Of a stretch of 13,911 nt of DNA, positions 1 to 13,142 are shown one piece after another. A model generated the notes under the pieces. The model searched no databases. It had not been told where the DNA came from and was given only the letters and a program-made list of their open reading frames with translations. Numbering within the stretch: position 1 is the stretch's first letter; the number at the start of each line of letters is the position of its first letter. Position numbers and translations under genes: made by a program. The DNA is from an uncultured Oscillospiraceae bacterium. GTDB taxonomy: Bacteria; Bacillota; Clostridia; Oscillospirales; Oscillospiraceae. Where the stretch lies: contig CANQKJ010000026.1 of NCBI GenBank assembly GCA_947624465.1, positions 1 through 13,911 of the forward strand. The letters are read 5' to 3'.

Positions 1-1716
1 GAGGAGCTGCTGCGCGCCGGCATGGAACAGGAGGTCCGGGTGGTCAAGACCGGCTGCTTCGGCCTGTGCGCCATGGGTCCCATCGTCATGGTGTTCCCCG
101 AGGGGGCCTGCTACACCCAGGTGAAGCTGGAGGACGTGGCCGAGATCGTGTCCGAGCACATCGTCAAGGGCCGCATCGTCACCCGCCTGCTCCACAAGGA
201 GGACGCCGAGACCGGCGCCGTCACCTCCCTGGCCGAGACCAATTTCTATAAGAACCAGATGCGCATCGCGCTGCGCAACTGCGGCGTCATCAACCCCGAG
301 TCCATCGACGAGTATATCGGCGTGGACGGCTATACCGCCCTGGAGCGCATCCTCACCGAGCAGATCCCGCCCCAGGAGATCATCGACTGCATCAAGAAGT
401 CCGGCCTCCGGGGCCGCGGCGGCGCCGGCTTCTCCACCGGCACCAAGTGGCAGTTTACATACGACGCCAAGAGCGACGACGGCGTGAAATTCGTGGCCTG
501 CAACGCCGACGAGGGCGACCCCGGCGCCTTCATGGACCGCTCCGTGCTGGAGGGCGACCCCTTCTCCGTCATCGAGGCCATGACCATCGCCGGCTACGCC
601 ATCGGCGCCCACCAGGGCTACATCTACATCCGCGCCGAGTACCCCATCGCCGTCAAGCGGCTGGAGATCGCCATCGGCCAGGCCAAGGACTACGGCCTGC
701 TGGGCAAGGACATCCTGGGCTCCGGCTTCGACTTCGACCTGGAGCTCCGCCTGGGCGCCGGCGCCTTCGTCTGCGGCGAGGAGACCGCCCTGATGACCTC
801 TATCGAGGGCCACCGCGGCGAACCCCGCCCCCGTCCCCCGTTCCCGGCGGTGAAGGGCCTGTTCCAGCGGCCCACCCTGCTGAACAACGTGGAGACCTAC
901 GCCAACATCACCTGGATCCTCAACAACGGCTGGGAGAAGTTCGCCGCCATCGGCACCGAGAAGTCCAAGGGCACCAAGGTGTTCGCCCTGGGCGGCAAGA
1001 TCACCAACACCGGCCTGGTGGAGATCCCCATGGGCACCACCCTGCGCACCATCGTGTACGACATCGGCGGCGGCTGCCCTGGCGGCAAGAAGTTCAAGGC
1101 CGCCCAGACCGGCGGCCCCTCCGGCGGCTGCATCCCCGCCTCCCTGATCGACACCCCCATCGACTACGACTCCCTGACGGCCATCGGCTCCATGATGGGC
1201 TCCGGCGGACTCATCATCATGGACGAGGACAACTGCATGGTGGATATCGCCAAGTTCTTCCTGGAGTTCTGCGTGGACGAGTCCTGCGGCAAGTGCACCC
1301 CCTGCCGCATCGGCACCAAGCGGCTGCTGGACCTGCTCACCAAGATCACCGACGGCAACGGCACCCTGGAGGATCTGGACACCATCGAGGAGCTGTGCTA
1401 CCACCTGAAAGACTCCTCCCTGTGCGCCCTGGGCCAGTCGGCCCCCAACCCGGTGCTGTCCACCCTGAAATACTTTAAGGACGAGTACATCGCCCACGTG
1501 GTGGAGAAGCGCTGCCCCGCCGGCGTGTGCAAGAAGCTGCTGAAATACGAGATCGTGGCCGACAAGTGCAAGGGCTGCACCCTCTGCGCCCGGAACTGCC
1601 CGGTGGGCGCCATCTCCGGCGTGGTGAAGGGTCCCCATTTCATCGACACCGAGAAGTGCATCAAGTGCGGCCTGTGCCAGTCCAACTGCCGGTTCGACGC
1701 CATTGTGAAGCACTGA
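1..1716 (+). CDS. hydB: NADH-binding (NuoF-like) subunit of [FeFe] hydrogenase, 5'-truncated
   Basis: This is the flavin and NAD(H) subunit of a multimeric, probably electron-bifurcating, cytoplasmic [FeFe] hydrogenase. The frame is open from base 1, so the Met at 22 is probably internal and the true start lies before the window; 571 residues are visible against roughly 600 or more in the family. Numbered from Met22: the second half of an N-terminal thioredoxin-like [2Fe-2S] domain (C12, C16; its first Cys pair is missing), the GRGGAGF nucleotide loop (131-137), the FMN loop CNADEGDPGAF (160-170), an SLBB region, the N3-type [4Fe-4S] site (C422, C425, C428, C468), and a C-terminal double [4Fe-4S] ferredoxin (C516/519/522/526 and C546/549/552/556). 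The ferredoxin tail separates it from complex I NuoF and fits HydB/HndC. hydA follows 16 bases later, and hydC is expected upstream. Whether it uses NAD or NADP cannot be read here. Confidence 0.93.
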   Translation, partial: EELLRAGMEQEVRVVKTGCFGLCAMGPIVMVFPEGACYTQVKLEDVAEIVSEHIVKGRIVTRLLHKEDAETGAVTSLAETNFYKNQMRIALRNCGVINPESIDEYIGVDGYTALERILTEQIPPQEIIDCIKKSGLRGRGGAGFSTGTKWQFTYDAKSDDGVKFVACNADEGDPGAFMDRSVLEGDPFSVIEAMTIAGYAIGAHQGYIYIRAEYPIAVKRLEIAIGQAKDYGLLGKDILGSGFDFDLELRLGAGAFVCGEETALMTSIEGHRGEPRPRPPFPAVKGLFQRPTLLNNVETYANITWILNNGWEKFAAIGTEKSKGTKVFALGGKITNTGLVEIPMGTTLRTIVYDIGGGCPGGKKFKAAQTGGPSGGCIPASLIDTPIDYDSLTAIGSMMGSGGLIIMDEDNCMVDIAKFFLEFCVDESCGKCTPCRIGTKRLLDLLTKITDGNGTLEDLDTIEELCYHLKDSSLCALGQSAPNPVLSTLKYFKDEYIAHVVEKRCPAGVCKKLLKYEIVADKCKGCTLCARNCPVGAISGVVKGPHFIDTEKCIKCGLCQSNCRFDAIVKH

Positions 1717-1732
1717 GAGAGGAGGGACGAAC

Positions 1733-3487
1733 ATGGAACAGAAAATGATCAATCTGACTATCGACAACATCCCCGTCACCGTCCCCGAGGGCACCACCGT
1801 GCTGGAGGCCGCCCGGGCCGCCGGCATCAAGATCCCCTCTCTGTGCTATCTGAAGGACGTCAACGAGATCGGCGCCTGCCGTATGTGCGTGGTGGAGGTC
1901 AAGGGCGCCCGCTCCCTGATGGCCTCCTGCGTCTACCCCGTGTCCGAGGGGATGGAGGTGCTGACCAACACCCCCAAGGTCCGCCACTCCCGCCAGCTCA
2001 CCTTGGAGCTGATGCTGTCCAACCACCGGATGGACTGCCTCACCTGCTCCCGGAACGAGCACTGCGAGCTGCGCCAGCTGGCCGCCGATCTGGGCATCGA
2101 CGCGGTCCGCTACGCCAACGACAATCTGAAGCCCCAGATCGAGGCCTCCGCCCTCCATCTGGTGCGGGACAACTCCAAGTGCGTGCTGTGCCGCCGCTGC
2201 GTGGCCGTGTGCCGCAAGCGCCAGTCGGTGGGCGTCATCGGCCCCAATGACCGGGGCTTCCGCACCCACATCGGCTCCGCCTTCGACCGGGACCTGGCCG
2301 AGGTGGACTGCGTCTCCTGCGGCCAGTGCATCGTGGCCTGCCCCACCGGCGCCCTTCAGGAGCAGGACTCCACCGCCGAGGTGCTGGCCGCCCTGCACGA
2401 CCCCAGCAAGCATGTGGTGGTGGGCCCCGCCCCCTCCGTCCGCGTCACCCTGGGCGAGTGCTTCGGCATGCCCGTGGGCACCAACGTGGAGGGCAAGATG
2501 GTCACCGCCCTGAAGCGCCTGGGCTTCGACAAGGTGTTCGACGTGGACACCGCCGCCGACTTCACCATCATGGAGGAGGGCACCGAGTTCCTGGAGCGGC
2601 TCCAGAACGGCGGCACCCTGCCCATGATCACCTCCTGCTCCCCCGGCTGGATCCGGTTCTGCGAGCAGCACTACCCCGACTTCATCCCCAACCTGTCCAC
2701 CTGCAAGTCTCCCCAGCAGATGTTCGGTGCCCTGGTGAAGAGCTACTACGCCGAAAAGGCGGGCATCGACCCCAAGGACATCTATGTGGTCTCCATCATG
2801 CCCTGCACCGCCAAGAAGTACGAGGTCAAGCGGGAGGAGCAGCGGATGAAGAACGGCTGTATGCCCGTGGACGCCGCCCTCACCACCCGTGAGCTGGGCC
2901 GCCTCATCACCCAGGCCGGCATGATGTTCGACCACCTGCCCGACGGGGAGTTCGACCCCATGCTGGGCGTCTCCACCGGCGCGTCGGTCATCTTCGGCGC
3001 CACCGGCGGCGTGATGGAGGCCGCGCTGCGCACCGTGGCCGCCAAGCTGATGGGCGACGATCAGGCCCCCCTGGAGTTCCACGAGGTCCGCGGCATCAAG
3101 GGCATCAAGGAGGCCTCCTACGAGCTGCCCGGCAGGACCGTGAAGGTCTGCGTGACCTCCGGCCTTGCCAACGCCAAGATCGTGCTGGACGGGGTCAGGT
3201 CCGGCGAGATGCAGTATGACTTCATCGAGTTCATGGCCTGCCCCGGCGGCTGCGTCAACGGCGGCGGCCAGCCCCTGCACTCCGCCATCACCCGGTCCTT
3301 CACCGACCTGCGGGGCCTCCGGGCCGCCGCCCTGTACAGCCAGGACGAGGGCATGGAGTACCGCCGGAGCCACCTGAGCCCGGTGGTCAAGGAGGTCTAC
3401 GAGACCTACCTGGGCGAGCCCGGCGGCCACAAGGCCCACGAGATCCTTCACTGCACCTATGTGCCCCAGACCCGCTACCGTATCTGA
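1733..3487 (+). CDS. hydA: [FeFe] hydrogenase catalytic subunit (group A, bifurcating type)
   Basis: This subunit reduces protons or oxidises H2 at an H-cluster and passes electrons to HydB. At 584 residues its order is: N-terminal [2Fe-2S] ferredoxin (C38, C49, C52, C66), a His-Cys [4Fe-4S] site (H98, C102, C105, C111), two [4Fe-4S] clusters (C150/153/156/160 and C193/196/199/203), then the H-cluster domain with L1 TSCSPGW (300-306), L2 MPCTAKK (356-362) and L3 ACPGGCVNGGGQP from 502, followed by a small-subunit-like tail ending near 584. L1 has Ser where the textbook motif has a second Cys. From memory this form is common in HydA of trimeric enzymes, so I expect an active enzyme. The start ATG follows AGGAGG with 7 bases spacing; Met5 is a less likely start. 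It is co-transcribed with hydB and ends just before a strong terminator. There is no C-terminal thioredoxin-like extension. Confidence 0.95.
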   Translation: MEQKMINLTIDNIPVTVPEGTTVLEAARAAGIKIPSLCYLKDVNEIGACRMCVVEVKGARSLMASCVYPVSEGMEVLTNTPKVRHSRQLTLELMLSNHRMDCLTCSRNEHCELRQLAADLGIDAVRYANDNLKPQIEASALHLVRDNSKCVLCRRCVAVCRKRQSVGVIGPNDRGFRTHIGSAFDRDLAEVDCVSCGQCIVACPTGALQEQDSTAEVLAALHDPSKHVVVGPAPSVRVTLGECFGMPVGTNVEGKMVTALKRLGFDKVFDVDTAADFTIMEEGTEFLERLQNGGTLPMITSCSPGWIRFCEQHYPDFIPNLSTCKSPQQMFGALVKSYYAEKAGIDPKDIYVVSIMPCTAKKYEVKREEQRMKNGCMPVDAALTTRELGRLITQAGMMFDHLPDGEFDPMLGVSTGASVIFGATGGVMEAALRTVAAKLMGDDQAPLEFHEVRGIKGIKEASYELPGRTVKVCVTSGLANAKIVLDGVRSGEMQYDFIEFMACPGGCVNGGGQPLHSAITRSFTDLRGLRAAALYSQDEGMEYRRSHLSPVVKEVYETYLGEPGGHKAHEILHCTYVPQTRYRI

Positions 3488-3506
3488 GCCAAAATCTGAC
3501 CGCAGA

Positions 3507-3538
3507 GGTCCCCGAGCCCCGGCTCGGGGACCTTTTTT
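3507..3538 (+). terminator. Rho-independent terminator of the hydrogenase operon
   Basis: Two perfect 12-base arms, GGTCCCCGAGCC and GGCTCGGGGACC, flank a two-base loop (or 11 bp with a four-base loop) and run straight into six T residues. It lies 20 bases after the hydA stop codon and separates the hydrogenase genes from the next transcription unit. Confidence 0.93.
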
Positions 3539-3561
3539 GCCCCGCCCGGACCACGGCGGCA

Positions 3562-3590
3562 TTGACGGCGGCCGCCGCAGGGAGTAAACT
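3562..3590 (+). promoter_or_regulatory. Candidate sigma-A promoter for the decarboxylase-holB-ricT unit
   Basis: TTGACG at 3562-3567 and TAAACT at 3585-3590 are 17 bases apart, close to the housekeeping consensus. The site lies between the hydrogenase terminator and the next start codon and would give a leader of roughly 20 bases. It was judged by eye only. Confidence 0.55.
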
Positions 3591-3617: not shown

Positions 3618-4934
3618 ATGATGCCCACTCCTCTGTATGACTTGCTGCGCTCTCTGGCGGACAGGGACCTGCTGCGCCTGGATATGCCGGGGCACCACGG
3701 CCTGCCCCTGCCCTATGACCTCCCCTGGCCGACGGACCTGGACTGCACCGAAAATGGCCTCTCCGGGGACCTGTTCGGGGGCGGGCGGGACGCCATCGCG
3801 GCGGCGGAGGAGCTGTGGGCGGAGCGGTTCGGCTTCGACGCCTGCCTGTTCCTCACCGGAGGCTCCACCCAGGGGGTCCACGCCGGGCTGGCCCTGCTGG
3901 CGGGGGCGGGGGGACACGTCGCCCTGGACCGGGGGGCCCACCGCTCGGCTTACAACGCCCTGGCCCTGCTGGACCTGACCCCCCACTATCTTCCCCGGCC
4001 CTGGCTGGAGCGGGAGGGCGTTACCGGGCCCATCGACCCGGACCAGGTGGAAAAACTGCTGGATGACCGCCCGGAAATAAAAACGATTTGTATTACATCG
4101 CCCACATATTACGGCGTGTTGTCGGATATCCCCGCCATCGCGGCGGTCTGCCATGCCTACGGGGCCAGGCTGATGGTGGACGGGGCCCACGGCGCCCACC
4201 TGCCCTTTCTGGGGTATGAGGGCTATTCCGCCGCCGACGCGGTGGTGATGTCCGCCCACAAGGCCCTGCCCGCGCCGGGGCAGACCGCATTGCTGTTCGC
4301 CAACGGGTCATCGCTGGACGATCTCCGCCGGGTGGGGAGCCTCTACGGCTCGTCGTCCCCCTCCTATGTGATGATGGCCGCTTTGGACCTGGCGCGGGAC
4401 TACATGGAGCGGGAGGGGACCACCAAATACCGGGAGACGGCGGCCTCCGCGGCTGCCCTCCGGGAGAAGTATCCGGCGCTGGGGGAGGTCCCCGGCCTGA
4501 CCCTGGATCCCGCCCGGCTCACCCTCCTGTGCGGGGACGGCTTCGCCCTGGCGGACCGCCTCCGGGAGAAGGGCTGCCTGCCCGAGTTGGCGGATATGGG
4601 CCATGTGGTGTTCATCTGCACCTGCGCCGACTCACCGGAGCGGTTCGCCCGGCTGGACGGCCTGCTGGCGGCGGAGGACTGGTCAAATCCCGCCCATTGT
4701 CCACCCCCGCCCGCTTTGCCGCCCATGGCCCTCGCCCCGCGGGAGGCCCTGTTCGCCCCGAGAGAGGCCGTCCCGCTGGCATCGTCAGAGGACCGGATCG
4801 CGGCGGAACAGATCGCCCCCTATCCCCCCGGGGTGCCCGTGGTGGCCCCCGGCGAGGTCATCACGAAAAAAACTCTGGCCTATTTGAAGCAAATAGGTTA
4901 TAATAGTGAGTTGGTAAGCGTAATTCGCCCCTGA
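3618..4934 (+). CDS. Orn/Lys/Arg decarboxylase-family PLP enzyme (YaaO/SpeA-like)
   Basis: This is a PLP-dependent fold-type I enzyme of the prokaryotic ornithine/lysine/arginine decarboxylase family, 438 residues. Visible marks: MPGHHG near the N-terminus (canonical PGHK), GGSTQG for the PLP phosphate (about 79-84), SPTYYG, DGAHGAH (188-194) with the PLP-nitrogen Asp, SAHKALPAPGQ with the Schiff-base lysine K215, and the C-terminal YPPGVP...PGEVIT signature. The family usually has DEAHGAH, so Gly replaces Glu here. It is somewhat shorter than Bacillus YaaO, and the substrate cannot be assigned. ATG codons at 3618 and 3621 are both possible; neither has a strong Shine-Dalgarno (GGGA lies 7 bases before 3618). 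It is followed after 22 bases by holB, matching the yaaO...holB-yaaT neighbourhood of Bacillus, but without tmk. The last 20 or so codons are unusually AT-rich and contain a TATAAT. Confidence 0.85.
   Translation: MMPTPLYDLLRSLADRDLLRLDMPGHHGLPLPYDLPWPTDLDCTENGLSGDLFGGGRDAIAAAEELWAERFGFDACLFLTGGSTQGVHAGLALLAGAGGHVALDRGAHRSAYNALALLDLTPHYLPRPWLEREGVTGPIDPDQVEKLLDDRPEIKTICITSPTYYGVLSDIPAIAAVCHAYGARLMVDGAHGAHLPFLGYEGYSAADAVVMSAHKALPAPGQTALLFANGSSLDDLRRVGSLYGSSSPSYVMMAALDLARDYMEREGTTKYRETAASAAALREKYPALGEVPGLTLDPARLTLLCGDGFALADRLREKGCLPELADMGHVVFICTCADSPERFARLDGLLAAEDWSNPAHCPPPPALPPMALAPREALFAPREAVPLASSEDRIAAEQIAPYPPGVPVVAPGEVITKKTLAYLKQIGYNSELVSVIRP
4899..4904 (+). promoter_or_regulatory. Possible internal -10 element for holB-ricT
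   Basis: A perfect TATAAT lies inside the last codons of the decarboxylase gene, about 53 bases before the holB start. The surrounding codons are AT-rich in an otherwise GC-rich gene. The hexamer 17 bases upstream (TGGCCT at 4876-4881) is a poor -35 box and no extended -10 TG is seen, so this is only a candidate secondary promoter. Confidence 0.3.
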
Positions 4935-4956: not shown

Positions 4957-5718
4957 GTGAATATCGATCTGCCCGCCTCCCTGTCCCACGCCTACCTCAT
5001 CACCGGCGGCAGCGGGGAGAGCCGCGCCGCCCTGGCGAAGCGTCTGGCCGCCGCTTACCTGTGCGAGGGGGACGGCCCCGTCCCCTGCGGCGTGTGCCGG
5101 CACTGCCGGAAGGCCGCGGCGGGCATCCACCCGGACGTGACCGTCCTGGGGCCGCCGCCGGACAAGAGGGAGATCGGCGTGGACCAGGCCCGGACCCTCC
5201 GGTCCGACGCCTATATCCGCCCCAACGAGGGCCGGCGCAAGGTATACATCGTCGACCCGGCGGACGCCATGAACCCCGCCGCCCAGAACGCCCTGCTGAA
5301 GGTGCTGGAGGACGGCCCCGCCTACGCCGCCTTCCTGCTGCTGGCCGCCGAGCCGGGGAAACTGCTGGACACGGTGCGCTCCAGGTGCGAGCCCTTTCCC
5401 CTCCCCCCGGAGGAGGCCCCCGTGGACCCGGAGCTGTCGGAACAGGCGGAGGAGCTGGCCGAGCTGCTGCTGACCGGGGACGAGTTCGCGGTGGCGAAGG
5501 GGCTCACCGCTCTGGAGCTGGAAAGGCCCAGGGCCGACCAGCTCGCCGCCCTGCTGGGAGAGACGGAAAATCAAATCGCCAGACGGCTGGCCGCCCATCC
5601 GGCCAGGGGCGCCCGGGTCCTGCGGGCGCTGAAGGCCTGCCGGGAGAACGCGGTGTTCAACCCCGGCGCGGGGCATACCCTGGGCTGGATCGCCGCCGCC
5701 CTGTTCCAAGAGGCGTGA
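4957..5718 (+). CDS. holB: DNA polymerase III delta' (clamp-loader) subunit
   Basis: This is a subunit of the clamp loader that places the beta sliding clamp on DNA. The start is a GTG preceded by GGAAGGAGG with 7 bases spacing. Features of the 253-residue protein: HAYLITG entry to an AAA+ domain, a degenerate Walker A GGSGESR (17-23) with Arg where ATP-binding subunits have Lys, a zinc site C36/C44/C47/C50, a Walker B-like IVDPADAMN (98-106), NALLKVLE (111-118), and the SRC motif (142-144) whose Arg serves as the arginine finger for a neighbouring subunit. Delta' commonly does not hydrolyse ATP, which fits the Walker A change. The protein is short (Bacillus delta' is near 330 residues), and the shortfall is in the C-terminal collar domain. 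It sits between the decarboxylase and ricT, a conserved Firmicutes order; ricT starts 32 bases later. Confidence 0.9.
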   Translation: MNIDLPASLSHAYLITGGSGESRAALAKRLAAAYLCEGDGPVPCGVCRHCRKAAAGIHPDVTVLGPPPDKREIGVDQARTLRSDAYIRPNEGRRKVYIVDPADAMNPAAQNALLKVLEDGPAYAAFLLLAAEPGKLLDTVRSRCEPFPLPPEEAPVDPELSEQAEELAELLLTGDEFAVAKGLTALELERPRADQLAALLGETENQIARRLAAHPARGARVLRALKACRENAVFNPGAGHTLGWIAAALFQEA

Positions 5719-5750
5719 CCCCCCATCCTTTCGATATTGGAGGACATCCC

Positions 5751-6959
5751 ATGACTGAGATCATCAGCGTCCGCTTCAGAAGCGGCGGAAAACAATACTA
5801 TTTCGATCCCCTGGGCCAGCAGGTAGCCGAGGGCCAGGCCGTCATCGTGGAGACGGGCAAGGGCCTGGAGTACGGCACCTGCGTCAAGGGCAACACCGCC
5901 ATCGACGACGAGGCGGTGGTCCAGCCCCTCCGCCCCCTGGTGCGTCTGGCCACTGAGAAGGATGAAAAGCAGGTGCGGGACAACCGCCGCCGGGAGAAGG
6001 ACGCTCTGCGCATCTGCCAGCAGCTCATCAGCCAGCACGGCCTGGAGATGAAGCTGGTGGATGTGGAGTACAGCTTCGACGGCTCCAAGATCATCTTCTT
6101 CTTCACCTCCGACGGGCGGGTGGACTTCCGGGCCCTGGTGAAGGACCTGGCCGGCATCCTCCGGGTCCGCATCGAGCTGCGGCAGATCGGCGTCCGGGAC
6201 GAGGCCCGGATGCTGGGCGGCTTCGGCATCTGCGGCAAGCCCTTCTGCTGCGCCCAGTTCCTGGGCGAGTTCCAGCCGGTGTCCATCAAGATGGCCAAGA
6301 CCCAGAACCTGTCCCTGAACCCCACCAAGATCTCCGGCACCTGCGGGCGGCTCATGTGCTGCCTCAAGTACGAGGAGGACGCCTATGAGGACGCGGTGAA
6401 GCACTGCCCCCGGCAGGACTCCTTCGTGGAGTGCCCCGACGGGGTGGGGGTGGTGTCCTCCGTCAACCTGCTGAAGGAACAGGTGAAGGTGAAGCTGGAG
6501 GACTCCACCGAACAGCCCAAGAGCTACCTCACCAGCGAGATCCGGGTGGTGCGCTCCGGCAAGGGCAGGCGGCCCGAGGACTATGTGGCTCCGCCCGCCT
6601 CCGAGCTGGAGAAGCTCCGGGATCCCCAGGCGGAGGCCGCCCGCACCGGCCGCCGGCTGGACGCCCCCGCTGACCTCTCCGCCGTTTTGGACCGCTATCT
6701 GGGGGAGCAGCCCCAGTCCGAGGACCCCAAGAAGGGCAAGACCCGCTCCCGCCGCAAAAACGGCGGCAAAGAGGCCCGGCCCGCCCAGGAGCGGCCCGCC
6801 GCCGAGCGCCCCGCCGCCAAAGCCGTCCGGCAGGCGGCCGCCCAGGGGGAGACCGCCCCGGCGGAGGAAAAGCCCGCCGCCCCGTCCGGCGCCGCCCATC
6901 ACCGCCGCCACTGGCGGCCCCACCGCCACCACAAGTCCGGCGGCCAATCCCAGAACTGA
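5751..6959 (+). CDS. ricT: PSP1-domain protein RicT (YaaT) with long basic C-terminal tail
   Basis: RicT (YaaT) works with RicA and RicF in Bacillus as an Fe-S complex that binds RNase Y and affects mRNA maturation, sporulation and competence. The 402-residue protein starts at ATG 5751 behind GGAGG (7 bases spacing). The frame is open further upstream, but only as an out-of-frame shadow of holB. The core (about 1-275) begins MTEIISVRFRSGGKQYYF, contains the PSP1 domain and keeps the conserved cysteines: CGKPFCC (C161, C166, C167) and CGRLMCC (C198, C203, C204). Residues from about 276 to 402 are an extra tail not found in the ~275-residue Bacillus protein. The tail has an EKLRDPQAEAARTGRRLD segment, then Ala/Pro/Lys/Arg-rich low complexity, and ends in a His/Arg cluster (HHRRHWRPHRHHK). 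The tail may bind RNA, but this is a guess. A terminator follows. Confidence 0.92.
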   Translation: MTEIISVRFRSGGKQYYFDPLGQQVAEGQAVIVETGKGLEYGTCVKGNTAIDDEAVVQPLRPLVRLATEKDEKQVRDNRRREKDALRICQQLISQHGLEMKLVDVEYSFDGSKIIFFFTSDGRVDFRALVKDLAGILRVRIELRQIGVRDEARMLGGFGICGKPFCCAQFLGEFQPVSIKMAKTQNLSLNPTKISGTCGRLMCCLKYEEDAYEDAVKHCPRQDSFVECPDGVGVVSSVNLLKEQVKVKLEDSTEQPKSYLTSEIRVVRSGKGRRPEDYVAPPASELEKLRDPQAEAARTGRRLDAPADLSAVLDRYLGEQPQSEDPKKGKTRSRRKNGGKEARPAQERPAAERPAAKAVRQAAAQGETAPAEEKPAAPSGAAHHRRHWRPHRHHKSGGQSQN

Positions 6960-7002: not shown

Positions 7003-7024
7003 CAAATATTTTTTCATCCCGCGC

Positions 7025-7054
7025 AACCTTTTCGGCCCGTGCAGGGTATTTGAT
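7025..7054 (+). promoter_or_regulatory. Candidate ECF-sigma-dependent promoter (likely autoregulated)
   Basis: AACCTTTT at 7025-7032, preceded by GC, resembles the AAC-containing -35 elements of many ECF sigma factors. GGTATTTGAT at 7045-7054 lies at suitable -10 distance. No good TTGACA/TATAAT pair is present in this gap, which holds the only promoter position for the sigma/serpin genes. The match is by recollection of ECF promoter shape, not by computation, and the exact -10 hexamer is uncertain. Confidence 0.4.
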
Positions 7055-7074
7055 ACAGAGAGGAGGCAAGGCCC

Positions 7075-7542
7075 ATGACCCAGGAGGAGCGCACCCAGGC
7101 GGTAGAGCGCTGGGGCGACATGGTGTGGCGGCTGGCGCTGGCCCGCACCGCCAACGTCCCGGACGCGGAGGACGTGTTCCAGGAGGTCTTTCTGCGCTTT
7201 TTCCGCCATGAGGACGAGCTGAAAAGCGACGAGCACCGCAAGGCGTGGCTCATCCGCTGCACGGTGAACCGGGCCAACAGCCTGTTCTCCTCCCCCTGGC
7301 GGAAGCGCGCCCTCCCGCTGGAGGTGGCCGCCCAGGTGGGGGTGGAGGACGAGTACCGCGAGGTGTACAGCGCGGTGCTGTCCCTGCCCGCACGATACCG
7401 GGCGGTGATCCATCTGCACTATTTCGAGGGGCTTTCGGTGGCGGAGATCGCCGGGACCCTGGATCTGCCGGAGGGCACGGTAAAGTCCCAGCTCAGCCGG
7501 GGCCGGGCCTTCCTGCGGGACCTGCTGAACGAGGAGGTATGA
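7075..7542 (+). CDS. ECF-type RNA polymerase sigma factor
   Basis: A 155-residue group IV (ECF) sigma-70 factor with only regions 2 and 4. Region 2 includes DAEDVFQEVFLRFFRH (30-45), the core-binding and -10 recognition part, and AWLIRCTVNRA (57-67). Region 4 includes LPARYRAVIHLHYFEGLS and the helix-turn-helix VAEIAGTLDLPEGTVKSQLS (122-141) for -35 recognition. The start ATG follows AGGAGG with 8 bases spacing. It is the first gene of an operon with two serpins and is preceded by a candidate ECF-type promoter, suggesting autoregulation. No separate anti-sigma gene is present; the next protein begins with an anti-sigma-like cytoplasmic segment and is probably its regulator. There is no long C-terminal extension, so control by a partner protein is more likely than by an internal domain. 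The subfamily could not be assigned. Confidence 0.93.
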   Translation: MTQEERTQAVERWGDMVWRLALARTANVPDAEDVFQEVFLRFFRHEDELKSDEHRKAWLIRCTVNRANSLFSSPWRKRALPLEVAAQVGVEDEYREVYSAVLSLPARYRAVIHLHYFEGLSVAEIAGTLDLPEGTVKSQLSRGRAFLRDLLNEEV

Positions 7543-7545
7543 GCG

Positions 7546-9096
7546 TTGGAACGGTATAAAAAGGCCAACGAGGGCATCCACGCCCCCGAGGAACTGAAGA
7601 AAAAGGCCGCCGAGGAACCTCCGGCCGCCAAGCGCCTCCACCGGGCGGCCTGGCTGGGGGCAGCCGCCGCCCTGCTGGCGGTGGTGCTGCTGGTTGGGGT
7701 CGTCCCCCGTCTCAGCGGGATCCAGGCGGGTACGTCCGCCCCCGGCAGCGCGCCAGCCCTCGGCGGCGACGCGCCCATGAGCAGCCCCGCCTCCGGCGAG
7801 GCTCCGGGGAGCGACCCCTCCTCCCCGCCCCAGGCCGGGGAGCCGGGCGCGGACCTCCCCGCAGCCGTTCCCCTGGCGGCGGCGGTGTACCCGGAGACGG
7901 TCCCCTATCCCAGCTCGGACGACTCCGCCGCCTATCACGCCTGGGAGGCGGATGTGAGGGCCCGTCAGGCCCTGGCCCCGGCGGAGGACGGGCTGGCGCC
8001 CTTCTGCGCCGCCGCCCTGCCGGAGTTTTTGGGGAACAGCGGCGGGGAAAACCGGGTGTTCTCCCCTCTGAACGTGTACCTGGCCCTGTCCATGCTGGCG
8101 GAGACCGCCGGCGGCAGCAGCCGCCAGCAGCTCCTGGACCTGCTGGACGCCGACAGCGTGGAGACCCTGCGGCAGCGGGCCTCCGGCCTGTGGCAGGCCA
8201 ACTACCGGGACGACGGGGCGGAGACCTCCCTGCTGGCCGCTTCCCTGTGGCTAAACGACGATTTAGAGGGCGCCTATCATCAGGATACCCTGGACACGCT
8301 GGCAAAGGACTACTATGCCTCCGCCTTTTCCGGGGAAATGGGCAGCGAGGACTACAACAAGGCCCTGCGGGGCTGGATCGACGACCAGACCGGCGGCCTG
8401 TTGAAGGACGCCTCCGGCAAGCTGGCCCTGGACCCGGAGACGGTGCTGGCCCTGGTGACCACCATCCACTTCAAGGCCCGCTGGACGGACGAATTCTCCC
8501 CGGAACAGAACACCGAGGACCTGTTCCACGCCCCCGATGGCGACGTGACCGCCGCTTACCTCCACCAGACCGACACGGGGAGTTACTACCGGGGCGAGGG
8601 GTTCGGCGCGGTGGAGAAGCCCTTCGGAGAGGGCGGCTCCATGTGGCTCCTGCTGCCTGACGAGGGGGTGTCTGTGGACGAGCTGCTGGCCTCTGGCGCG
8701 GCGGCGGAGTTCCTGGCCGCCGATAAGGGGGACTGGCCGGAGCAGAAGTTTTTACAAATCGACCTGTCCGTGCCCAAATTCGACGTGGCCTCCGACCTGG
8801 ACCTGATCGAAGGGCTGAAAGCGCTGGGGGTCACCGACGTGTTCGACAGCGCCGTCTCCGACTTCACCCCCCTGACCGATTTGGCAGGGCTGTTCGTCTC
8901 CAAAGCGGAACACGCCGCCCGTGTCACCCTGGACGAGGAGGGGGTGGAGGCCGCCGCCTTTACCTTTATCTCCGACAAGTTGGGGGCATTTTTCCCGGAT
9001 GAGACCATCGACTTCACCCTGGACCGGCCCTTCCTGTTCGCCATCGAGAGCGAGACGGGGCAGCTCCTGTTCGTGGGCGTGGTCAACCACCCGTAA
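7546..9096 (+). CDS. Membrane-anchored serpin with anti-sigma-like cytoplasmic head
   Basis: The 516-residue protein appears to join an anti-sigma-type head to a protease-trapping serpin. The start is TTG at 7546, the only start available after the in-frame stop at 7540, with GGAGG 8 bases upstream; only three bases separate it from the sigma stop. Residues 1-34 are charged and contain YKKANEGIHAPEELKKK, like the N-termini of many clostridial ECF anti-sigma proteins. KRLHR precedes one membrane helix (about 35-53), predicting head inside and bulk outside. Residues 56-112 are a Pro/Ala/Gly/Ser linker, then YPETVPYP. The serpin domain (about 145-516) has NRVFSPLNVYLALSML, LRGWIDDQTGG, TTIHFKARW, VPKFDV, and the reactive-loop hinge EEGVEAAAF (464-472), with Gly at P15 and Ala at P12-P10 as in inhibitory serpins. 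The scissile bond is near residues 478-482 (KLGAF). The target protease is unknown. The serpin call is firm; the anti-sigma role is inferred. Confidence 0.88.
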   Translation: MERYKKANEGIHAPEELKKKAAEEPPAAKRLHRAAWLGAAAALLAVVLLVGVVPRLSGIQAGTSAPGSAPALGGDAPMSSPASGEAPGSDPSSPPQAGEPGADLPAAVPLAAAVYPETVPYPSSDDSAAYHAWEADVRARQALAPAEDGLAPFCAAALPEFLGNSGGENRVFSPLNVYLALSMLAETAGGSSRQQLLDLLDADSVETLRQRASGLWQANYRDDGAETSLLAASLWLNDDLEGAYHQDTLDTLAKDYYASAFSGEMGSEDYNKALRGWIDDQTGGLLKDASGKLALDPETVLALVTTIHFKARWTDEFSPEQNTEDLFHAPDGDVTAAYLHQTDTGSYYRGEGFGAVEKPFGEGGSMWLLLPDEGVSVDELLASGAAAEFLAADKGDWPEQKFLQIDLSVPKFDVASDLDLIEGLKALGVTDVFDSAVSDFTPLTDLAGLFVSKAEHAARVTLDEEGVEAAAFTFISDKLGAFFPDETIDFTLDRPFLFAIESETGQLLFVGVVNHP

Positions 9097-9116: not shown

Positions 9117-10607
9117 ATGGAACAGAGACCAAAAAAGCGCCGTATCTGGATCGTTGTTGTGGCCGTGGTGCTGGTCATCGCCGTAGCCGCCGGGGTGGTG
9201 TTCTGGCCGGGCGGGCCCTTCCGGCGCACCACCGTGCAGAAGGCGGACCCCATTCCCGGCACGCCGGGCTACAAGGGCTCGGGAAAGGCCGTGGCCCTGG
9301 CCGCCGCTGAGTACCCCGAGATGGTCCCCTGCCCCAAGGACACCGACTACGTGGTGGCGGGCGTGCTGGACACTGACCGCTACTATGACGCCCGGCGGAA
9401 GTGGGCGAAGAGCGTGGGCGCCCTCTCCTCCGGCCGGGACTATGGCGGCCTGCTGGACGATTACCTGACCGCCACCGCCAAACAGTTCCTCTCCGGCGGG
9501 GAGGGGGAGAACCGGGTGTACTCCCCGCTGAACATCTATCTGGCGCTGTCCATGCTGGCGGAGACCGCCGGTGGGGAGAGCCGGGATCAGCTGCTGGCCC
9601 TGCTGGGGGCGGACTCCATCGAGGACGCGCGCTCCATCGCCCACGACCTGTGGGTGGACGATTACCGGGACGACGGGCAGACCGCCTCCATCCTGGCCAA
9701 CTCCATGTGGCTCAACGACACCTTCGACGGCCACTACGTCCAAAGTACGCTGGACCGGCTGGCGGGCGACTACTACGCCTCCGCCTTTTCCGGCGAGGCG
9801 GGCACCCCGGAGTATGACCAGGCCCTCCGGGACTGGATCGACGGCCAGACCCACGGCCTGCTGAAAAACTACTCCCAGGACCTGACGCTGCACCCCGCCA
9901 CCGTCATCGCCCTAGTATCCACCCTGTACTATCAGGCCAGGTGGGCCGATCCCTTCGATCCGGACCGCACCGCCCCCGGCGACTTCCACACGCCGGGCGG
10001 CGACGTGACCGCCGACCTGATGCACAAGTCCATGGAGGGCCAATACTACTGGGCGGAGCGGTTCGGAGCGGTCTGCCTGGACTTTGAGGACAACGGCTAT
10101 CAGATGTGGGTCCTCCTGCCCGATGAGGGCACCGCCCCGGATGAGCTGATCGCCTCCGGCGAGGCCATGGATTTCCTGACCACCGACTGGGGCAGCGCCG
10201 GGGAGTGGGACCTGGAGACCGGCGTCACCACCTATCCCTGGGGCGGGTCCGGGCGCTACGACATCCGCCTGACCCTGCCCAAGTTCGACGTGTCCTGCGG
10301 CATCGACCTCATCGACGGGCTGAGAGAGCTGGGCGTCACCGACGTGTTCGACATGGACGCCGCCAACTTCACCCCCCTCACCGACCTGCCGCTGGTATAC
10401 GTGTCCCAGGCCAAGCACGCCGCCCGGGTCATCGTGGAGGAGGAGAAGGTGGAGGCCGCCGCCTACACCATCCTCGACGCGGCGGCGGGAGCCCCCGCGC
10501 CTCCCGGCGACACGGTGGAGTTCACGGTGGACCGGCCCTTTGTGTTCGCCATCACCGGCCCCGCCGGGCTGCCCCTGTTCGTGGGCGTGGTCAATGACCC
10601 GGCGTGA
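9117..10607 (+). CDS. Second membrane-anchored or secreted serpin, paralogue of the first
   Basis: This 496-residue serpin starts at ATG 9117 behind AGGAGG (7 bases spacing), 20 bases after its paralogue. A basic head (EQRPKKRRI) precedes one hydrophobic segment (about 10-29), either an uncleaved anchor or a signal peptide; no lipobox is seen. It lacks the longer cytoplasmic head of the first serpin, so it should not act as an anti-sigma factor. It shares the YPEMVP juxtamembrane motif and serpin marks: NRVYSPLNIYLALSML (132-147), LRDWIDGQTHG, LVSTLYYQARW, LPKFDV and DRPFVFAI. The hinge reads EEEKVEAAAYT (441-451): P15 is Lys (444) instead of Gly, while P12-P10 remain Ala. Beyond it the loop is made of small residues (AAAGAPAPPG, 455-464), which would suit an elastase-like protease, with P1 perhaps near G458. 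Inhibitory activity is less certain than for the first serpin because of the P15 change. A strong terminator follows. Confidence 0.9.
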   Translation: MEQRPKKRRIWIVVVAVVLVIAVAAGVVFWPGGPFRRTTVQKADPIPGTPGYKGSGKAVALAAAEYPEMVPCPKDTDYVVAGVLDTDRYYDARRKWAKSVGALSSGRDYGGLLDDYLTATAKQFLSGGEGENRVYSPLNIYLALSMLAETAGGESRDQLLALLGADSIEDARSIAHDLWVDDYRDDGQTASILANSMWLNDTFDGHYVQSTLDRLAGDYYASAFSGEAGTPEYDQALRDWIDGQTHGLLKNYSQDLTLHPATVIALVSTLYYQARWADPFDPDRTAPGDFHTPGGDVTADLMHKSMEGQYYWAERFGAVCLDFEDNGYQMWVLLPDEGTAPDELIASGEAMDFLTTDWGSAGEWDLETGVTTYPWGGSGRYDIRLTLPKFDVSCGIDLIDGLRELGVTDVFDMDAANFTPLTDLPLVYVSQAKHAARVIVEEEKVEAAAYTILDAAAGAPAPPGDTVEFTVDRPFVFAITGPAGLPLFVGVVNDPA

Positions 10608-10617
10608 TATTTATGCG

Positions 10618-10652
10618 AAATACGCCTCTCCGTATCGGAGGGGCGTATTTTT
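10618..10652 (+). terminator. Terminator of the sigma/serpin operon
   Basis: Arms AAATACGCCTCTCCG and CGGAGGGGCGTATTT pair over 15 bp with one T-G wobble and a three-base loop, with the T run beginning inside the second arm and ending at 10652. It starts 10 bases after the second serpin stop. The A-rich first arm means it could also work on the minus strand. Confidence 0.92.
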
Positions 10653-10715: not shown

Positions 10716-11981
10716 ATGGAGCATCGGTTCGGACCCGCGGCCAGATCCGCCTGGGCGTCCATCGTGACCCTGTTGAAGTGGCTGGGGCTGGGGCTGATCG
10801 TGGGCGGCCTCTGCGGGCTGGTGGGAGCGGCGTTCAGCGCCTCCGTCACCGCCGTGACGGAACTCCGGGCGGCCCACGGCTGGCTGGTGTTCCTGCTGCC
10901 CATCGCGGGCCTGGTCATCGTGTTCCTCTACCGGGCCGCCGGCATGGAGAACGACAGCGGCACCAACCAGATCATCGCCTCCGTCCGGGGGGAGGACCGG
11001 CCTCCCCTGCGGCTGGCCCCCCTGATTTTCATCGCCTCCGTCCTCACCCACCTGTGCGGCGGCTCCGCCGGCCGGGAGGGGGCCGCCCTCCAGATCGGCG
11101 GGGCGCTGGCCTCCGGCGTGGGGCGGCTGTTCCGGCTGGGGGAGAACAGCTTCAAGACCATCGTCCAGTGCGGCATGGCGGGGCTGTTCGCCGCCCTGTT
11201 CGGCACGCCGCTGGCCGCCGCCGTCTTTGCCCTGGAGGTGGTGAGCGTGGGCATCTTCCAGTACTCCGCCCTGTTCCCCTGCATCGTGTCGGCGCTGACG
11301 GCCCTCCGGGTCACCCAGCTCGTCGGCGTGGAGGCGGAGGAGTTCCCCACCCTCACTCTGGGACCCGAGCTGGGCCTCCCGGTGATGCTCCGGGTGGGGG
11401 CCCTGGCGGTGCTGGCGGCGGTGGTGTCTATCGTCTTTTGCGTACTCATGCACAAGACCGCCCATCTGTACCAGAAGTACCTGCCCAACCAGTACGTCCG
11501 CATCGTTGTGGGCGGCGTGCTGGTCATCCTTCTGACGGCGATCGAGGGCAGCGGCGACTACAACGGCGCCGGCACCCACACCATCATGCTGGCCCTGGGG
11601 GCGGGGCAGGCGGCGCCCTGGGCCTTCGCCCTCAAAATGCTGTTCACCGCCGTCACCCTGGGGGCGGGCTACCGGGGCGGCGAGATCGTGCCCTCCTTCT
11701 TCGTGGGGGCCACCTTCGGCGCGGCGGTCTCCCCCCTGCTGGGGCTGGACCCGGTGTTCGGGGCGGCCCTGGCCATGATCGCCGTGTTCTGCGGGGTGGT
11801 CAACTGCCCCATGGCCTCCCTGCTGCTGAGCCTGGAGCTGTTCGGTGGGGCCAACGTGCTGTACTTCGCCCTGGCCGCTGCGGTGAGCTTTCTGCTCAGC
11901 GGCAAGTTCTCCCTGTACAGCGCCCAGAAGATCGCCTACTCCAAACTGGAGCCAGAGTTCATCGACGAGAACGCCCACTGA
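10716..11981 (+). CDS. CLC-family anion transporter, fluoride/proton antiporter-like (CLC-F type)
   Basis: A 421-residue polytopic membrane protein of the CLC family. The start ATG follows GAAGGGGG with 7 bases spacing. Diagnostic segments are GGSAGREGAALQIGG (115-129), with the gating glutamate at E121, FGTPLAAAVFALE (162-174), and GAGYRGGEIVPSFFVGATFG (316-335). Standard chloride CLCs have GREGP, a GSGIP serine loop and GIFAPMLALG in these places. Here the serine loop is replaced by a SGTNQII segment (81-87), and the late motif matches the GGEVTPLFFIGA style that I recall for CLC-F fluoride/proton antiporters. NCPMASLLLSLELFG (363-377) also fits that branch. The likely role is export of fluoride driven by protons. 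Simple chloride transport remains possible, since the sub-branch call comes from memory of motifs. It stands alone between its own promoter and the gap gene, with no riboswitch in its leader. Confidence 0.88.
   Translation: MEHRFGPAARSAWASIVTLLKWLGLGLIVGGLCGLVGAAFSASVTAVTELRAAHGWLVFLLPIAGLVIVFLYRAAGMENDSGTNQIIASVRGEDRPPLRLAPLIFIASVLTHLCGGSAGREGAALQIGGALASGVGRLFRLGENSFKTIVQCGMAGLFAALFGTPLAAAVFALEVVSVGIFQYSALFPCIVSALTALRVTQLVGVEAEEFPTLTLGPELGLPVMLRVGALAVLAAVVSIVFCVLMHKTAHLYQKYLPNQYVRIVVGGVLVILLTAIEGSGDYNGAGTHTIMLALGAGQAAPWAFALKMLFTAVTLGAGYRGGEIVPSFFVGATFGAAVSPLLGLDPVFGAALAMIAVFCGVVNCPMASLLLSLELFGGANVLYFALAAAVSFLLSGKFSLYSAQKIAYSKLEPEFIDENAH

Positions 11982-12038: not shown

Positions 12039-13142
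<1,104 letters not shown>

Follow-up and report, generated by a model that had tools for sequence, protein, structure and literature searches.

Why is the gene for an extracytoplasmic function (ECF) sigma factor followed at once by the gene for a membrane-anchored serpin? This arrangement is found on contig CANQKJ010000026.1 of an uncultured Oscillospiraceae bacterium (assembly GCA_947624465.1), and the whole stretch of 13,911 nucleotides, referred to here as the window, was analyzed. Anti-sigma genes often directly follow ECF genes, and a first-pass annotation had proposed that the serpin (serpin1) is itself the membrane anti-sigma factor. The data discussed below suggest that serpin1 very probably has this role, with its short N-terminal head predicted to bind and hold the adjoining ECF sigma. 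The assignment is made because the two genes are near-obligate neighbors, the head is conserved, heads follow the sigma type and the promoter motif is specific to the operon.

The sigma factor and its neighbors

The window sigma is an ECF sigma factor: it has the sigma-70 regions 2 and 4 and lacks regions 1 and 3. Both PF04542 (Sigma70_r2; 43.1 bits) and PF08281 (Sigma70_r4_2; 63.1 bits) match above the Pfam cut-off, as does TIGR02937 in NCBIfam. The gene ends with TGA at 7540-7542, and after GCG (7543-7545) the serpin1 gene opens with TTG at 7546, the three-base spacing and TTG start being as first read. The architecture initially given to serpin1 (a charged head, a single membrane helix, a low-complexity linker and a complete serpin domain) is likewise confirmed by the open reading frame (ORF), Pfam and the sequence. 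Two features had gone unnoticed: a second serpin gene (serpin2) and, ahead of the sigma gene, a promoter-like motif that is conserved (Table 1). Serpin2 starts 20 bases 3′ of serpin1 and has a membrane helix and no serpin1-type head. L033, L034 and L035, which are near relatives, have the order sigma-serpin1-serpin2 as well, and the two serpins are the only ones detected in the source genome, an incomplete 2.09 Mb assembly (78% complete).

The junction shows a further feature. In many type-1 relatives (the window's type, see below), the serpin starts at an ATGA overlap, while in the window clade TTG lies seven bases later, as if an old start had been lost. The ATGA at the window's sigma stop (7539-7559) opens merely a six-residue frame.

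Linkage of sigma and serpin genes across genomes

In a scan of public genomes, 80 loci out of 533 relatives were retained. Together with earlier loci, these yielded 21 serpin ORFs that fit the head pattern (20 and the window's), and a sigma gene of the window type lies directly upstream in 21/21, the two genes either overlapping by four bases or being three bases apart. Variant heads behind the same sigma type are seen in L048 and L059. A sigma profile was also searched in 300 genomes of the family, with at most 12 candidates scored per genome, and 30 loci among the matches listed were examined. At each of the 11 best (>200 bits, the window's own included), the next gene encodes head, helix and serpin; L124 (~191 bits) is likewise serpin-linked, its serpin running off the contig. 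The close sigma clade (>190 bits), window included, is serpin-linked in 12/12 cases. At the other 18 loci (≤180 bits) no serpin lies downstream, and other partner proteins are encoded there instead. Homologous sigma genes unlinked to serpins had been named beforehand as grounds for abandoning the proposal; they are found among these distant relatives and not in the close clade.

The first-pass annotation had also suggested surveying genomes for sigma-serpin adjacency. For a census, all serpin matches in 101 genomes of the family, from 100 genera, were considered; 53 genomes matched, giving 77 rows, with six fragment rows on other contigs omitted (G038:C5, G063:C199, G063:C157, G005:C16, G002:C155 and G081:C204), and 70 distinct serpin ORFs of at least 250 amino acids were classified. 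Five have a type-1 head behind ECF-1 and 16 a type-2 head behind ECF-2; one more has a type-2 head but lacks an ECF gene. At L223, the sigma gene is truncated by the contig end. Of the other 48, 45 are lipoproteins, labeled by a lipobox pattern and by eye, not by SignalP; two, which share a contig (L009), are plain secreted pieces, and the last is serpin2 of the window. Labels set by eye are those of both L009 rows (plain secreted) and of the second L182 row, L198, L212, L229, L195 and the L186 piece, which is complete in L199 (all lipoproteins). Directly behind an ECF gene, at gaps of -23 to +27, are 21/22 head-bearing serpins vs 0/48 of the others; two of the 45 lipoprotein serpins have an ECF gene at a distance (616 bases in L013 and 804 bases in L177). 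The pairing of sigma and serpin is no accident. Moreover, a downstream and conserved position, found here for all 12 close sigmas and for all head-bearing serpins but one, is that of a membrane anti-sigma gene.

The conserved head of serpin1

Residues 1-33 of serpin1 are charged, and KRLHR precedes the membrane helix (residues ~34-53), which was judged from the sequence, without a topology program. A conserved N-terminal segment followed by one membrane helix is the layout of a membrane anti-sigma factor. Beyond the helix, a conserved extension of the A-x-YPE type lies between linker and serpin domain. A homologue search that scored 7996 candidates sharing most words with serpin1 gave 3202 homologues of the full-length protein, and each of the best 120 spans the whole query. 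Among these best 120 of 3202, the head motif RY..A is present in 120/120, RY..A...[IVL]H.P in 119/120 and the exact RY..ANEGIHAP in 96/120. In an alignment of 26 rows, R3, Y4, A7, I11, H12, A13, P14 and K18 of the head (the start residue aside) and W36 are invariant, beside a linker that differs in both length and letters. Judged from these alignments, the head is under strong selection.

At ~33 residues, the head is smaller than class I anti-sigma domains, which have about 50 residues or more (PMC7406223; this and the other reports cited by PMC number are covered in part, and statements taken from them apply to the parts covered). AlphaFold2 models the head as two short helices and the linker region as lacking structure, both with low confidence. 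In a Pfam scan of serpin1 at E≤0.1, the Serpin family alone was found and DUF4179 was not; membership in the RsiV/DUF4179 anti-sigma family was rejected on this result. A signal-peptidase site was also considered as an RsiV-like site 1, since several short-linker homologues have A-x-A outside the helix, and is not relied on. By eye, similar letters also adjoin the conserved YPEM motif where the linker is long, and a clean A-x-A is missing from the window protein.

A putative promoter motif in front of the operon

In 32 regions inspected upstream of type-1 operons, GCAAC-N17-GGTATT is present exactly in 23, with one mismatch in five and with two or three mismatches in four. The stricter pattern GCAACCNTTTN12GGTATT, allowing at most one mismatch, has one match each in 9/12 sigma-bearing genomes, always directly upstream of the ECF-1 gene, and the reversed pattern has one match in the 12 genomes. 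The relaxed GCAAC-N17-GGTATT gives 16 matches in the 12 clade genomes, nine at the operon (one of them new, in G089) and seven elsewhere, and eight matches in 12 genomes without the sigma clade; its reversed-pattern controls give 0 and 1. As the seven off-operon matches are no more than the eight in clade-free genomes, no further regulon target is supported. In G051 and G256, the strict and relaxed patterns both fail to mark the operon. Because the motif is specific to the operon front, the sigma-serpin operon looks self-regulated.

Type-2 operons (L052, L063, L067, L095, L099 and others) have, by eye, a common motif TGTCA...TGCGAC-TATA upstream of sigma-2; self-regulation is suggested for these operons too.

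Head types, other partners and apparent exchange of serpin modules

At least two distinct ECF/head types carry serpins. The window-type ECF sigma appears to be dedicated to the serpin. Pfam searches of 10 of the 18 non-serpin partners gave five proteins with DUF4179 (one above the cut-off, four below), one with RsgI_M above the cut-off, one with DUF4367 below it and three without any match. Heads were compared for 16/18 non-serpin partners of window-like sigmas and 16/22 of sigma-2, those omitted having unclear starts or being near-copies. The head follows the sigma type, clearly for type 2 across different ectodomains and weakly for the window's type 1. A shuffle test of head kinship preserves composition, not helix pattern, and may overstate kinship. 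The serpin share for sigma-2 (8/30, for 30 loci among the matches listed) is biased upwards because the sigma-2 profile was built from serpin-linked genes. As to a separate anti-sigma gene elsewhere in the source genome, three paralogous sigma genes were found there, each with its own downstream protein that by eye shows an apparent head and membrane helix. The ECF-linked, apparently single-pass proteins at L125-L142 and L145-L170 combine related head types with ectodomains that are exchangeable and for the most part unnamed.

On a quick LG+G4 tree of 156 serpin domains, in which a gene may be represented by several copies and some labels may reflect cut contigs, sigma-linked and lipoprotein serpins are interleaved, with 13 state changes after label corrections, two of them made by hand (14 "other" rows are excluded from the count). 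Well-supported branches force at least eight changes for the lipoprotein label, nine for type 2 and five for type 1. This interleaving suggests that serpin modules switched repeatedly between lipoprotein anchors and sigma-linked heads.

The serpin domain and its reactive center loop

Serpin1 has a complete serpin fold (the Pfam Serpin model matches residues 153-516 at 207.7 bits, E 4e-61). Among solved structures, a conserpin is closest to it in sequence (150.7 bits). Its hinge EEGVEAAAFT aligns with EEGTEAAAAT of the conserpin. In inhibitory serpins, the hinge (P17-P9) reads ExGTEAAAA (PMC8233489); relative to this motif, EEGVEAAAF retains G at P15 and AAA at P12-P10 and deviates at P14 and P9. 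Among relatives, compared by a pattern that mis-parsed a few rows, the hinge is conserved (G at P15, small residues at P12-P10), and P14 is mostly hydrophobic and P9 mostly aromatic in the sigma-linked serpins. The loop center is variable, as expected of inhibitors with differing targets.

The best of five AlphaFold2 models of serpin1 has a mean predicted local distance difference test score (pLDDT) of 72.5, with the serpin domain mostly at 80-90; the other four have 51.5-60.0. It resembles latent and cleaved (loop-inserted) serpins most, native forms ranking lower in the same lists, which means that the loop can be modeled in the inserted form. Such a model is no proof of activity.

The hinge of serpin2, EEKVEAAAYT, has Lys in place of Gly at P15, which is unusual for an inhibitory serpin. 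Lys at P15 is found in 4/12 "other" rows of the hinge comparison; these rows are presumably serpin2 itself and the equivalent proteins of L033-L035. Some serpins are joined to further domains, as seen by eye: in L006 and L026 they are fused to apparent S-layer homology repeats (the L006 serpin lies within a frame of 1273 amino acids with two serpin matches), and in L008 and L009 an apparent copper amine oxidase-type surface domain precedes the serpin.

Model of the circuit and alternatives

How would such an operon respond to a protease? In the model favored here, serpin1, a single-pass protein, would retain the neighboring ECF sigma by its short cytoplasmic head. Outside the cell, a serine protease that attacks the bacterium, be it of host, dietary or rival origin, would be trapped by the serpin, which is consumed thereby. 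The trapped or cut ectodomain would bare the stalk to a site-1 cut, and a site-2 protease would clear the stump, so that sigma is released with the loss of the head; for the site-2 protease family, two partial matches only were found. The freed sigma would use the putative promoter and give more sigma, serpin1 and, in the window, serpin2, which would be the main products of activation because the motif (at most one mismatch) is found only at the operon. New serpin1 would restock the spent molecules and its head would silence the circuit again, in a "use one, make one" manner.

The steps differ in strength. It is likely that sigma reads the putative promoter and mainly boosts its own operon. 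That trapping by the ectodomain and subsequent stepwise proteolysis free the sigma is somewhat favored. The whole chain, i.e., a self-regulated sigma/anti-sigma unit with a suicide protease inhibitor as input domain, is on balance probable, and is placed no higher because of several weak points. When sigma and head were modeled by AlphaFold2 as one fused chain, the head was mostly below pLDDT 50 and unplaced, a result that speaks neither for nor against contact between the two. In addition, L230 (reverse strand, ORF 2086-3562) has a type-2 head serpin without an adjoining ECF gene, an orphan head, and the homology of the type-1 head to other anti-sigma-like heads is weak. The original idea of a serpin as membrane anti-sigma factor has gained from comparative genomics (adjacency, conserved head and promoter motif) and not from the fused model.

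Release could also be triggered at the linker. Here, serpin1 would still be the anti-sigma factor and trapping would be silent, but once the serpin is exhausted, excess protease would cut the exposed linker as bait; this cut would be the site-1 cleavage and the serpin would set the threshold. The adjacency, promoter and head data fit this equally well, and the window protein has a long Pro/Gly/Ala/Ser-rich linker in which no structure is predicted. However, the linker is far shorter in several of the 26 aligned sequences, which means that a long bait is no general feature. We regard this route as unlikely. A more doubtful scheme takes the input away from the ectodomain altogether: a general envelope signal, via signal peptidase or a PrsW-type site-1 cleavage, would free sigma, and the serpin would be cargo, made in amounts set by the sigma factor. 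Serpin modules do exist as plain lipoproteins without an adjoining ECF gene, and the anti-sigma factor RsiP is cleaved by signal peptidase while sensing is left to a separate protein (PMC8844934). Yet the ectodomain keeps to its sigma clade in 12/12 close cases and serpins joined two ECF/head types, which suggests that the serpin matters to the input.

Finally, head and helix might be an unusual long signal peptide or anchor that does not bind sigma, the sigma factor merely driving a surface serpin in its operon. Serpin2 of the same operon, in which a helix occurs without such a head, and the unplaced head of the fused model are in line with this. We consider it highly improbable, given a head strongly conserved next to a freely varying linker, type-2 heads that track the sigma type across different ectodomains, and the established frequent position of anti-sigma genes behind ECF genes. 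Returning to the favored model, the broader proposition that gut Clostridia use serpins as receptors, coupled by a short anti-sigma head to an ECF sigma so that each trapped protease calls for its replacement, is evenly poised in our view.

Layout of the window

Table 1. Features of the sigma-serpin operon and its surroundings, with positions in the window
Feature	Positions	Strand	Basis
Putative ECF-type promoter, GCAACC-N16-GGTATT (GCAACCTTTTCGGCCCGTGCAGGGTATT)	7023..7050	+	Motif conservation upstream of type-1 operons
GAGGAGG ribosome-binding site of the sigma gene	7060..7066	+	Assigned by eye from sequence
ECF sigma factor, 155 amino acids; region 2, residues 10-72; region 4, residues 95-147	7075..7542	+	Pfam, NCBIfam
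Serpin1, TTG-started membrane serpin, 516 amino acids, proposed anti-sigma factor	7546..9096	+	ORF, PF00079, full-length homologues
Serpin1 cytoplasmic head, residues 1-33, proposed sigma-binding segment (MERYKKANEGIHAPEELKKK...)	7546..7644	+	Homologue conservation
Serpin1 membrane helix, residues ~34-53	7645..7704	+	Sequence; low-confidence model helix 34-51
Serpin1 Pro/Gly/Ala/Ser-rich linker, residues ~54-112	7705..7881	+	Sequence; no predicted structure; length varies among homologues
Serpin1 serpin domain, residues 153-516	8002..9093	+	Pfam
Serpin1 reactive center loop: hinge EEGVEAAAFT, then FISDKLGAFFPDETIDF	8935..9015	+	Conserpin alignment; relatives compared
Serpin2, membrane-anchored, 496 amino acids, helix residues ~10-30, proposed operon effector	9117..10607	+	ORF, PF00079 (188.8 bits)
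Terminator-like stem-loop 3′ of serpin2	10625..10641	+	Consensus scan alone; 4 sites in the region vs 2.0 expected
Ordinary neighbors: NADH-linked iron hydrogenase subunits, Orn/Lys/Arg decarboxylase, DNA polymerase III delta-type and PSP1 proteins, chloride channel, GAPDH	22-3487, 3618-4934, 4957-6959, 10716-11981, 12123-13142		Pfam

Comparison with known systems

For bacteria of the gut, proteases rank among the main threats, and they are also typical of an inflamed gut; little is known of how Clostridia sense them. If the model is true, an anti-sigma factor that bears a serpin would act as a receptor for proteases directly, which would explain the role of some enigmatic bacterial serpins; the restocking of a single-use inhibitor would become directly testable, and a ready-made protease-responsive genetic switch might be at hand. 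The first-pass annotation knew of no described signaling system of this kind. Nor was an anti-sigma factor with a serpin as its receptor part found in the literature on bacterial serpins, their regulation and anchoring, ECF/anti-sigma classification and DUF4179, of which coverage was partial, with the main ECF reclassification paper outside it. A sensor destroyed by its ligand would, if true, be a receptor type of which that literature, as far as covered, holds no description.

Among membrane anti-sigma factors, the RsgI type of Clostridia is represented here by L142, where the RsgI_M model matched the partner of a distant window-like sigma. RsgI-type factors have exchangeable sensory ectodomains, with ligands that differ from the input proposed for serpin1. 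CnrY, from a different phylum, offers a parallel for the short head. This class II ECF anti-sigma factor has a very short two-helix part (PMC7406223), to which the 33-residue head of serpin1, with its two low-confidence helices, is likened by layout.

The closest known logic is that of RsiV and sigma-V in Bacillus subtilis, where the RsiV ectodomain directly binds a host defense enzyme and the anti-sigma factor is the receptor (PMC4183432, PMC6066255). DUF4179 proteins are the partners of sigma-V and also of more remote relatives of the window sigma. Unlike RsiV, which has DUF4179 and binds lysozyme, serpin1 would have a single-use protease trap as its ectodomain, and DUF4179 was undetected in it. 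RsiP, which pairs with sigma-P in Bacillus thuringiensis, is a single-pass anti-sigma factor without DUF4179, as is proposed for serpin1, and is removed by stepwise proteolysis; its sensor, in contrast to the serpin1 proposal, is a separate penicillin-binding protein (PMC8844934).

As for gut serpins, the siropins of Eubacterium siraeum and other gut serpins are described as inhibitors of elastase-like proteases, and the parts of these accounts covered make no link to a sigma factor or operon (PMC5127057, PMC8201313). In Bifidobacterium breve, transcription of the serpin gene rises on protease treatment, and regulation proceeds via a two-component system encoded beside the serpin operon (PMC8012564), whereas in the window the sensor and the serpin would be one polypeptide.
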